A DNA stretch of 55,175 nt from Pseudomonadota bacterium (GTDB lineage: Bacteria > Bdellovibrionota > Bdellovibrionia > Bdellovibrionales > Bdellovibrionaceae). Below the pieces are notes generated by a model that did no database searches, was not told the origin of the DNA, and worked only from the letters and a program-made list of their open reading frames with translations. The stretch lies in assembly GCA_021300175.1 (NCBI GenBank), contig JAJTIC010000030.1:1-55175 (forward strand), given 5' to 3'. Shown here in pieces: positions 1,994 to 9,828 of this stretch (position 1 is its first letter; each line of letters begins with the position of its first letter). A program made the position numbers and the translations under genes.

Positions 1994-3292
1994 CTACGGC
2001 AAACTGTCAAATCTCCGACGGCGGGAGAAAAATTCGTCATTCCAGTGACAGCTCATTTGACCTCGAAGGGTCGCTTTCAGACCCATCGAATAAGAAGAGC
2101 TTTGGTCGTACCATTGATTGATCCATACTGTTCCCACTTCAAACTTAGCCCCTAAGTTTCGAGCTTTCTCTGGTTCACCGAAAATCTGAGCGGCTAAGGC
2201 TAGCTCTCCTTGATTCACCCACCGAACCATTTCATGGGGATACTTCACAGACGAAACCAGAGCAATGGGGAAAGGTAATTCCTCTTGCTGATAAACGGAA
2301 CAATGGGGAAGCTCGCGGATCACTGAGAAATTCAACCGATTCTGTGTCTTCAAAAAACTGAGGTCAGGTTTGGTCAGCCATTGACCCACATCTTGATTGA
2401 TCTCACCAATAGCTTTCTCGGCAAACTGCAAATGATCCTGCAAAAAGAACTCACCAGCTTCTTTCTCAAAAAGCCTTTCGGCAGCTTGGCGAAACAGCTC
2501 GAAGAACTCTTTTGAACTCTGATCCAAACAAATGACTTTCTTCACCGAATAAGGATGCTGACCTTGAAAAAGAAAACAAGACTGCGCCAACTGCTCAGCG
2601 ACCTGCAAACTTTCGCTACCCCCAAGGACAAGAGCTGTATTGCTCGAAGGCCCATAGCCCGTATAAGCTTTGCCTCCCTTTGCGGCCAAGGTAGCCAGAT
2701 GGGACAAAGTTTCGCTTCCTCCTGCCACCATCAATCCATTGACTGACGGATGCTGAACCAAAAATTCTTTGAGAGTGCTTTCCTGAAGACGCACAATCTG
2801 CACAGCACCTTCTTGAAGAACGCTGATCTGATCTGATTTCAAAAATTTTGATAAAGTTTCCGCCGTCAAACTCCATAACGGGTTCAGCCTTGCTGGAGTC
2901 CTCGAGCTGGGCTTAATCACAAGACCATTTCCTGCCACGAGATTTTGAATGATGGCATGCCATACCCATTGAAACCAGAACACTCGAGGTGCTAGGGCCA
3001 CAACAAGCCCTTGAGGAGTGTATAAACTTTCTAAGTTTTCATTGGTCTGCAGAAGGGTCGACCTGAGCTCTTTCAAAACCGGATCGAAGAAATACTTTTC
3101 ACTGACAGCCTGAGAGCAAGCATATCCCTCATTGAGGGCTTTTAAGAGATCTTCTTTGCCATCTAAAATCACTGCTTCTAAGCGCCGAAGCCATTGACGT
3201 CGATCTTCGATTGTCGGGCGCACCATGGGCTGAGAAAACTTTTTCCCCGCTTGCAGGACAGAAATAAGTTGAGGCAAAGATACAATGTTCAC
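1994..3292 (-). CDS. Aldehyde-dehydrogenase-fold protein lacking the catalytic Cys
   Basis: A 432-residue protein of the ALDH superfamily. Family landmarks are a WHAIIQNLVAGNGLVIKPSS cofactor-binding segment (Lys127), a VAGGSETLS nucleotide-loop equivalent near 189-197, and a C-terminal GTVWINQW near residue 397. The place of the nucleophile (GQxC) reads GQHP at 244-247, so Cys is replaced by Pro. The base Glu region reads YTGYGPSSN, resembling CoA-acylating relatives, which naturally lack that Glu. Cys239 is nearby but out of register. The start is GTG. It sits just after the terminator of the upstream operon, with little room for its own promoter. It could be a non-catalytic relative or an unusual acyl-CoA reductase; the function is not known. 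Confidence 0.8.
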   Translation of the reverse strand: MNIVSLPQLISVLQAGKKFSQPMVRPTIEDRRQWLRRLEAVILDGKEDLLKALNEGYACSQAVSEKYFFDPVLKELRSTLLQTNENLESLYTPQGLVVALAPRVFWFQWVWHAIIQNLVAGNGLVIKPSSRTPARLNPLWSLTAETLSKFLKSDQISVLQEGAVQIVRLQESTLKEFLVQHPSVNGLMVAGGSETLSHLATLAAKGGKAYTGYGPSSNTALVLGGSESLQVAEQLAQSCFLFQGQHPYSVKKVICLDQSSKEFFELFRQAAERLFEKEAGEFFLQDHLQFAEKAIGEINQDVGQWLTKPDLSFLKTQNRLNFSVIRELPHCSVYQQEELPFPIALVSSVKYPHEMVRWVNQGELALAAQIFGEPEKARNLGAKFEVGTVWINQWYDQSSSYSMGLKATLRGQMSCHWNDEFFSRRRRFDSLP

Positions 3293-3315: not shown

Positions 3316-3347
3316 AAAAAAAGGCGATAGCTTTGCTATCGCCTTTT
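3316..3347 (-). terminator. Strong Rho-independent terminator of the 10766-3386 operon
   Basis: Stem GGCGATAGC / GCTATCGCC closed by a 3-base loop, extended by A/T pairs and followed on the minus strand by seven T residues (3322-3316). It lies 39 bases after the stop of the 36-residue gene and 24 bases before the start of the ALDH-like gene, so some readthrough may feed that gene. Confidence 0.9.
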
Positions 3348-3385
3348 CAATCCTCGGGCGGATCGTAGTCATCACTTAACTGACG

Positions 3386-3496
3386 TTAAATGACAGCCAC
3401 CTCCGCCTTGGTCTTGTGATATTCTGACATAACCAAGCACCACCCCCTTTCATGCCAGTAGACTGGCTCCCCTAGTTTAAATGGAGTGCCCTTCAC
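3386..3496 (-). CDS. 36-residue small protein, translationally coupled to the methyltransferase
   Basis: A short frame starting with GTG that overlaps the methyltransferase stop (GTGA), the same junction used two genes upstream between the HIT and methyltransferase genes. The product has a strongly structured pattern: FKLGEPVYWHERGWCLVM followed by a charged turn and ending AEVAVI. That alternation of a Gly-Glu turn with short beta-like strands resembles a KOW or SH3-like barrel half, which is an inference. It is the last gene before the operon terminator. It has no signal peptide or membrane segment. The function is unknown; possible roles are nucleic-acid or protein binding. Confidence 0.6.
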   Translation of the reverse strand: MKGTPFKLGEPVYWHERGWCLVMSEYHKTKAEVAVI

Positions 3497-4134
3497 AGGG
3501 AAGAAGAATTGCGATGTATCTCAACAAGGGACGTGGCTCTGATCAGGCCTAGCTCATTGACTTGAGCCTGGCCTCGGCAAAAAACATCAATATCTTTGAG
3601 CATTTGCAATCCATGCTGACTTTGATCTCGAATCAGAACGTATCCCAAAGAGCCAGGCTTTAGCAGACCAAGAAGAGCCTGGACCAGTTGCTCAAGGTTT
3701 CCATCCAAAAAAAATCGACTGCGATTCTTAAACTCAGAAGGGCTGAGCTTACCTTGGCTCGGCAAAAAAAAGGGGGGATTGCAGACAATCAAATCAAAAA
3801 CCTGCAAACCAAAAGTCTGATTCCAATTCCGAAAATCTCCAAAATTCAAATTCATGATGGTCACCGGGAACCGCTTCTGGAGTTCCCGAACATTTCTTTC
3901 TAAGTGAACTTGATTGGCTGCTTGCAGCTCTAAAAAATCAAACGACCGAATCGTTGTAAAATGAAAGAGCGTTTCTAATCCCATCACTCCGCACCCCGCG
4001 CAGAGATCCAACGCACGATCTACTGAGAGAATTCCTCGCTCCTTCAGCCGAGCTGCAATTCTGCGAGGCCCCTCTACCGAATCGAGAGAAAAATGGTACT
4101 CCGGATTTTGAGAGTACCGAAACGTAAAACTCAC
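3493..4134 (-). CDS. TrmN6-like SAM-dependent N6-adenine methyltransferase
   Basis: A 213-residue class I methyltransferase. Motif I is ALDLCAGCGVMGLE (residues 41-54) and motif IV is VCNPPFF (residues 118-123), the NPPF signature of N6-adenine or amide-N methylases. The overall form fits the tRNA1(Val) A37 methylase family (YfiC/TrmN6), so tRNA is the likely substrate. The start is GTG and overlaps the HIT gene stop by 4 bases (GTGA). The assignment to N6-adenine chemistry is firm from the NPPF motif; the exact RNA target is inferred and an RNA or protein (PrmC-like) target is not excluded. Confidence 0.85.
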   Translation of the reverse strand: MSFTFRYSQNPEYHFSLDSVEGPRRIAARLKERGILSVDRALDLCAGCGVMGLETLFHFTTIRSFDFLELQAANQVHLERNVRELQKRFPVTIMNLNFGDFRNWNQTFGLQVFDLIVCNPPFFLPSQGKLSPSEFKNRSRFFLDGNLEQLVQALLGLLKPGSLGYVLIRDQSQHGLQMLKDIDVFCRGQAQVNELGLIRATSLVEIHRNSSSL

Positions 4135-8743: not shown

Positions 8744-9828
8744 TACTCCACCCCAGCCGTGACTAGGATGAGAAAAACAAAATTCAAAGAAAACCATAAA
8801 CTCATCTGTAAAAGAGCAATCTGCTTTCCAACCCGCAAAGTTTTTGTCATGTCGGATCCCAAAGGACTTTGCAGGCGATCCAGATTTTTCCAAAAAACAA
8901 AACTCGCAAAAAATCCTGAAACAAGAAAAACCAAAGCCACTTCCGGCAACGAGTACAAAACATGCAACAGAACAAGACCTAAACAGAAAGTGCTCCACCA
9001 GATTTTCAAAAGCACTTTTGAACTATCAAATCCTAAATGAGTGATTGAATTGCGAAAACGAGCTTGGGACTGAACCATCAACAATTCAAAATTTCTCAAG
9101 TGCAAAGAAAAAACACCCACCCACCCCGTGAGGAGACCAATCAAAACCGCTTCTACATCCAGCGGGGCCCCAAAAGAGAGCTGAAATCCGCTGGTCAAAA
9201 AGGGACCTAAAAGTAAAAATACCAAAAGCTCTGTCCAACTTCTGTACTTAACGCCCATTCGAAAGGAAGTGATCAAAATCACTCCCAAAGCAGACAAGGA
9301 ACCCACAAAAAGAAGAACTTGAGGGTAATCCAACACAGGCTTCAAACCAAAAAGAACACCTAAGATAAAATAAATCCAAGCCCAAACTTTCACGGACTGG
9401 GCAGTGACCCAACCTTTTTGAATCGCTCGGGATCCTGCTGTCGGCAAAACACGATCAAGGCCTTTCATGTGATCTACAAAATCATTTCTTAAGTTAAGGC
9501 TTGTATGTAGGAAAAAAGCCCCAACGGCGGCAAGCAAACCATCCAAGGGATTGATCAAAGTTCCATCAAACAAATTTTTCACGATGATCAAGAACATCGG
9601 AAGAGCTGCATAAATGAAAGTGTGGAGCTTGAAGACCTGGGACCATTTGACGAAAAAGTCGGGTGTCTCAATCTGTTGTACCGGCACAATTTGGAAAGTC
9701 ACTCGCTCTTGATCAGAATCCACATTCAACGACTGCAAAGGCAGTGCTCTGTGAGTGTTTGAAAAAGTGCCCAACAGATAACTTTGAAAGTCAGAATCCG
9801 ACTTATTTAATGTTTTGAGCTCGCTCAT
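8743..9828 (-). CDS. UbiA-family prenyltransferase homologue with degenerate second Asp motif
   Basis: A 361-residue membrane protein with about eight hydrophobic segments beginning near residue 65. The first prenyl-diphosphate motif, NLRNDFVDHMKGLDR near 113-126, matches the MenA/UbiA NDxxD site. The second motif, which in the neighbouring menA is RDMEGDRK, is replaced here by LRNFELLMVQSQARFR, with no Asp pair. There is also a 60-residue polar N-terminal extension absent from menA. The start is ATG 9828, overlapping the synthase stop (ATGA). It is probably a MenA paralogue that prenylates another acceptor or has lost transferase activity. Confidence 0.75.
   Translation of the reverse strand: MSELKTLNKSDSDFQSYLLGTFSNTHRALPLQSLNVDSDQERVTFQIVPVQQIETPDFFVKWSQVFKLHTFIYAALPMFLIIVKNLFDGTLINPLDGLLAAVGAFFLHTSLNLRNDFVDHMKGLDRVLPTAGSRAIQKGWVTAQSVKVWAWIYFILGVLFGLKPVLDYPQVLLFVGSLSALGVILITSFRMGVKYRSWTELLVFLLLGPFLTSGFQLSFGAPLDVEAVLIGLLTGWVGVFSLHLRNFELLMVQSQARFRNSITHLGFDSSKVLLKIWWSTFCLGLVLLHVLYSLPEVALVFLVSGFFASFVFWKNLDRLQSPLGSDMTKTLRVGKQIALLQMSLWFSLNFVFLILVTAGVE

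Follow-up and report, generated by a model that had tools for sequence, protein, structure and literature searches.

A small-RNA gene of Bdellovibrionota homologous to APsRNA2, with a strong Shine-Dalgarno sequence near each end of a short reading frame

Bdellovibrio bacteriovorus HD100 encodes APsRNA2, a 134-nt small RNA located at 535,188-535,321 (+) (Karunker et al. 2013, Table 2; PMC3627812). It is published as a non-coding attack-phase sRNA with no function given, and its RPKM is 8,869 in attack phase vs 204 in growth phase, a 43-fold difference (PMC3627812). The same study reported no significant homology for these sRNAs in genomes other than B. bacteriovorus (PMC3627812). No other mention of APsRNA2 was found in the literature searched.

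The window analysed here, a stretch of 55,175 nt, has a predicted RNA gene that is homologous to APsRNA2 of HD100 by sequence comparison. The window copy and the HD100 copy are related in sequence and structure, as both fit one model and the first hairpin, P1, covaries. In G036, a genome whose coordinates match those of HD100, the model match covers 535,188-535,274 (+) and begins exactly at the published APsRNA2 start. As a check on the coordinates, the published merRNA interval holds a c-di-GMP-I aptamer in G036 with 54.3 bits, which just misses the gathering score of 59. The 5' end of the window RNA is set at the base homologous to the mapped APsRNA2 start. The predicted gene, its parts and its neighbours are listed by position, strand and basis.

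3316-3469 (-): predicted sRNA gene of about 154 nt, APsRNA2 homolog (covariance-model match, 5' end, terminator)
3497-3502 (-): weak -35-like box TTCCCT with a 17-nt spacer to the -10-like box (consensus match only)
3474-3479 (-): -10-like box TAAACT, 4 nt 5' of the RNA (consensus match only)
3454-3467 (-): P1, 5'-end hairpin GCCAG-TCTA-CTGGC (covariation)
3439-3449 (-): SD1, AAGGGGGTGGT, an 11-nt complement of the 16S tail including two G-U pairs (sequence, anti-SD energy)
3386-3436 (-): mini-ORF from TTG 3436 (MVMSEYHKTKAEVAVI) or ATG 3430 (MSEYHKTKAEVAVI) to stop codon TAA 3388-3386 (in-frame homologs)
3407-3437 (-): P2, stem of CUUGGU (3437-3432) with ACCAAG (3412-3407) around the start codon (folding; partly conserved)
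3398-3404 (-): SD2, GGAGGTG, inner SD-like stretch ending 9 nt 5' of the stop codon (sequence, anti-SD energy)
3370-3395 (-): P3, predicted hairpin containing the stop codon, 3395-3385 with 3380-3370 (MFE fold)
3357-3407 (-): P4, predicted long-range helix of GGCGGA (3407-3402) with TCCGCC (3362-3357) (MFE fold; homologous helices)
3316-3346 (-): intrinsic terminator AAAAGGCGATAGCAAAGCTATCGCCTTTTTTT (sequence)
3493-4134 (-): methyltransferase (Cons_hypoth95/MTS), upstream neighbour, outside the RNA (domain search)
1994-3292 (-): ALDH-family gene, downstream neighbour, outside the RNA (domain search, PDB alignment)

The covariance-model match itself spans 3382-3469 (-) with an E-value of 1.9e-22 under model R1, which has the window copy among its training sequences. 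The 16S tail used for the SD assignments, GGATCACCTCCTTT, was found in four relatives including HD100 and not in the incomplete assembly of the window. P4 encloses P3 and covers part of SD2.

The first-pass annotation had read this locus as an unlisted 36-residue protein at the end of a large operon. The 36-codon GTG frame is present at 3496-3386 (-), and what was said of its position is correct. The GTG start shares a GTGA with the methyltransferase stop codon, the HIT/methyltransferase junction at 4131-4134 is an overlap of the same type, and 39 nt lie between the end of the frame and the terminator hairpin (3346-3316). The open frame taken alone is not beyond chance, since 63 ORFs of at least 30 aa overlap the surrounding 6 kb and GTGA overlaps are common. 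The 3' half of the frame is far beyond chance. The pattern GGTGGTGCTTGGT-N(5-30)-CCAAGGCGGAGGTGG has no match in 100 window shuffles, and other genera have it in nearly the same form. For two genera, G014 and G018, the stretch GAAAGGGGGTGGTGCTTGGT...ACCAAGGCGGAGGTGG is almost identical, with identical third codon positions. There is a conserved stretch with a kept frame and the same stop codon that annotation missed, as had been proposed, but a 36-aa protein is not supported.

The GTG has no SD; its best anti-SD energy is +1.9 kcal/mol vs -13.6 kcal/mol at the inner start (3436). It sits between the -35-like and -10-like boxes, a position that looks like the promoter of the RNA itself. Since the GTG is without an SD and lies inside an apparent promoter, the inner start is favoured, and translation very probably begins 20 (TTG, 3436) or 22 (ATG, 3430) codons 3' of it. 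The TTG at 3436 fits homologs that read TTG-GTG there, with the ATG at 3430 as the alternative. The methyltransferase was sought in 60 genomes (that of the window and 59 relatives) and is present in 24. The 36-aa frame was seen behind it in 0 of the 23 other genomes with a homologous gene, in one of which the contig ends there. The closest elements are those of G014 and G018, and there stop codons just upstream close the frame. A Pfam search of the 36-residue frame gave no match. The suggested KOW or SH3-like fold is excluded in practice because the peptide would have only 14-16 residues and its sequence drifts across families. The combination of a conserved protein sequence and a valid start, which a folded small protein should have, was not found. 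A 36-residue folded protein translated through coupling to the methyltransferase would agree with the GTGA overlap and the open frame, but it is already contradicted by the missing SD, the upstream stops and the absence from the other methyltransferase genomes, and is extremely improbable. Rather than the last protein of an operon, the element appears to be an independent RNA gene.

A relaxed pattern found three further copies in genus g7, which is Bdellovibrio as judged from G036, and the methyltransferase is not adjacent there. A first covariance model (R1), built from six copies, detected a single strong copy in about 49 of the 66 genomes of the family, six of these being the training sequences. 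A second model (R2), built from 50 copies and applied at E<=0.001, places the element in 50/66 family genomes and in 92/369 genomes of the phylum, mostly as one copy each. In 16/66 family genomes, all six of genus g6 among them, there was no covariance-model match. All five pairs of P1 show double-sided changes among 46 distinct sequences, with 99.1% of cells paired, and slid controls are far lower for the structure as a whole. P2 is conserved only in part, with 54% of cells paired across the alignment of 50 sequences. The window segment and the homolog loci have no match in Rfam 15 above the gathering score; the sub-threshold matches are mostly terminator-like, and an Rfam identity was rejected. 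A broad pattern scan of genome contigs returned Bdellovibrionota and scattered matches in other phyla. Two doubtful ones (L129, L138) were rescored with R2 and neither was convincing; the remaining scattered matches are taken as chance. These comparisons establish the predicted element as a stand-alone, mostly single-copy small-RNA gene of Bdellovibrionota.

Two variants of the element were also seen. The locus L085 1009-1088 (-) in G009 has P1 and SD1 without the SD2 anchor or the usual mini-ORF, and is a degenerate or misidentified copy. About ten relatives (among them L062, L038, L039, L064, L069 and L072) have a terminator-like hairpin with a recurring internal loop, GAGCA-CC..GG-ATCCA, about 57-72 nt past the mini-ORF stop. 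Its stems vary, it is not seen in HD100 or the window, and it is possibly a protein or ligand site.

The reading frame of the predicted mini-ORF is preserved. The spacing from SD1 to the start codon (ATG or TTG) is 4-6 nt in 49/49 family copies with a mini-ORF, and 49 of 50 family copies run 14-17 codons in frame to the stop. With 38 copies mostly from other families, there are 87 mini-ORFs of 13-21 codons. Within the family the distance from SD1 to the start codon differs in steps of one base (4, 5, 6), and the ORF length only in steps of three. When the strongest inner SD-like 7-mer is chosen blind to frame, the first stop comes 3-12 nt past it in the mini-ORF frame in 86/87 copies and in 0/87 in both the +1 and +2 frames; the copies were selected with frame 0 open, so that these zeros are a fair composition contrast and not a clean probability. 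The stop codon is TAG in 40/49 family copies and never TGA, and is mostly TAA outside the family. Strong comparative evidence suggests that the mini-ORF may be translated, as a dual-function sRNA would require.

The second feature that is constant is SD2. Together with the very strong SD1 at the start, it gives the predicted RNA a twin-SD layout, with SD2 about 9 nt before the stop. SD2 ends exactly 9 nt 5' of the stop codon in 72/87 copies. The mean anti-SD energy near the stop is -13.9 kcal/mol in the family vs -3.4 kcal/mol for codon-shuffled ORFs. For the other copies it is -12.0 vs -2.8 kcal/mol, a comparison that is partly ascertained because the model used to select the copies includes SD2-like sequence and the distant set was required to have an ORF of 10-24 codons. 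The cleanest support comes from the most distant copies, whose matches end before SD2. Distant copies build SD2 from other codons (ACA GGA GGA, GCT GAA GGA GTG, AAG GAG GTA).

SD2 appears to be masked by pairing, usually with RNA 3' of the stop. Its mean unpaired probability is 0.15 vs 0.35 for SD1, a value at which SD1 too is open only to a moderate degree. Helices without gaps over SD2 score 22.7 and 20.8, compared with 14.4 and 14.2 for shuffled and 19.0 and 16.6 for swapped controls, and beat all 20 shuffles in 26/48 and 14/37. Many lineages have a homologous helix whose partners have changed, and changes such as GGCGGAGG/CCTTCGCC, CACGGTGGAGG/TTTCCACCGTG and AAGCCGGAGGTGATCG/CGATCATTTTCGGCTT argue for a real masking helix in those lineages. 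P4 is weaker in the window than in most homologs and is unsupported in some lineages (p>0.3). Two further roles were considered and rejected: reinitiation at SD2 (no start codon at a suitable spacing in the copies inspected) and a CsrA sponge (GGA is absent from SD1 of the window).

The preferred reading is that of a translation-gated sRNA that holds ribosomes at its own stop codon, in which the act of translation and not the peptide is selected. It is adopted tentatively and given somewhat less than an even chance. Ribosomes recruited at SD1 would open the P3 and P4 helices as they translate the mini-ORF. Once the stop codon occupies the A site, SD2 would be 6 nt from the P-site codon, which equals the SD1-to-start geometry (4-8 nt). 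The duplex of SD2 with the anti-SD could then slow release or hold the 30S subunit after termination; retention of this kind is assumed from the general behaviour of SD sequences. Since a parked ribosome would keep P4 open, the 3' part may be in a different state in translating and in idle cells. We infer these three steps, translation, holding at the stop and the switch of the 3' part, from the conserved layout. A broader version, put forward with more reserve, is that these twin-SD mini-mRNAs form a phylum-wide class with a single conserved output, a stop-codon ribosome held by an initiation-spaced inner SD, which would serve predatory bacteria as a structural switch or translation sensor.

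A functional peptide of 13-21 residues would also explain why the frame is preserved across copies, and family peptides commonly read MVxxxDITKAEVxxS, with a common TKAEV core. However, the conserved family residues coincide with nucleotides of SD2 and of the P2/P4 pairing and are under strong synonymous constraint. The Ile codon at -10 is ATA in 38/39 copies vs 3% in five HD100 genes, and the Glu codon at -6 is GAG in 44/44 vs 34% in the same genes. Changes of GAG to GGG replace Glu with Gly and retain the G-run. Outside the family the peptides differ (MQNTLDSTEVKFS, MNTLNKLRAETGGLSH, MSSDSSNLGALCGGLQ) while the SD2-to-stop layout stays, and a peptide product seems rather improbable. A leader or attenuator acting in cis on the gene that follows, an ALDH-like gene in many genera and CheA in Bdellovibrio, would fit most family genomes, where a same-strand ALDH (20) or CheA (21) gene follows within about 30-240 nt, usually with the terminator between. 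Against this, the RNA is retained in G014, G011 and G016, where the following gene is on the opposite strand, neighbours outside the family are unrelated and often opposed, and in HD100 CheA and other chemotaxis-like genes separate the RNA from the ALDH gene (L086, G036 533000-545000). No conserved regulated gene of the kind expected downstream of a leader-peptide attenuator was found, and this role is distinctly improbable. A riboswitch for the ALDH gene was rejected on the same neighbours. Most copies have a -10-like box at a similar place 5' of the element, and 70/87 have an intrinsic terminator at a median of 41.5 nt past the stop.

A trans-acting role would be that of a dual-function or base-pairing sRNA, in which the C/U-rich strand masking SD2 (ACCUUCGCC, ACCUCCGCC) is a seed for the SDs of target mRNAs and the mini-ORF only regulates access to this seed or is incidental. 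The strand is similar to an anti-SD, occupation of SD2 would release it, and the 43-fold attack-phase rise of APsRNA2 (PMC3627812) agrees with such a role. Yet the strand changes with the SD2 flanks from lineage to lineage and is not kept as a seed, and the frame and stop spacing are better conserved than the strand; this explanation is unlikely but deserves some weight. As a short attack-phase RNA with two very strong SDs, the element could also be taken for a bulk decoy that sequesters 30S subunits during the attack phase, when cells do not grow. This is very unlikely, as SD2 is masked and the RNA is too scarce to titrate ribosomes: merRNA has an RPKM of 2,038,479 and is reported to be 2-fold above tmRNA (PMC3627812), which puts APsRNA2, at 8,869, at roughly 1% of tmRNA.

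The ALDH-family neighbour (1994-3292, -) has features of its own. Its best PDB alignment places GQHPYS against GQRCTA of an NADP-GAPDH, so that the catalytic Cys is lacking. The ALDH homologs adjoining the RNA in G018 and G026 also lack the catalytic Cys, by eye. Since this Cys is missing, the neighbour may be a pseudoenzyme. In HD100 the ALDH gene, a 71-aa CxxC protein and a D-Ala-D-Ala ligase are in the same order as in the window.

With these results an orphan attack-phase transcript of one strain becomes a phylum-wide RNA family with a testable design. It offers a naturally occurring case in which to ask whether ribosome release is controlled by an SD just 5' of a stop codon, and indicates that what looks like a gene for a small protein can be the coding portion of a structured RNA. 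To our knowledge, no described RNA works as a twin-SD stop-codon ribosome holder. The SD-stimulated recoding sites of prfB and dnaX have an inner SD at a defined distance from the decoding site, which in prfB is next to a stop codon. The element resembles them in this defined distance. In contrast to both, no conserved frame to shift into was seen in the element before the terminator. The SD spacing of prfB is short, whereas here about 6 nt would separate SD2 from the P-site codon, as for initiation.

Two described small RNAs are similar in having a short ORF. VcdRP of Vibrio cholerae is a dual-function sRNA and, like the element, a structured small RNA (PMC8672173). Its 29-aa protein and its base-pairing site both act, whereas here the peptide is not conserved and there is no known target. 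The rnTrpL/peTrpL attenuator of Sinorhizobium meliloti likewise combines a short ORF, alternative helices and a terminator in a small RNA (PMC7298713), but outside the family the gene downstream of the element is not conserved, and the element has no regulatory codon run. The closest relative is APsRNA2 itself, at the same locus in HD100 and with the same start. It was published as a 134-nt non-coding RNA of B. bacteriovorus only (PMC3627812), whereas the predicted family described here is phylum-wide and carries a mini-ORF.
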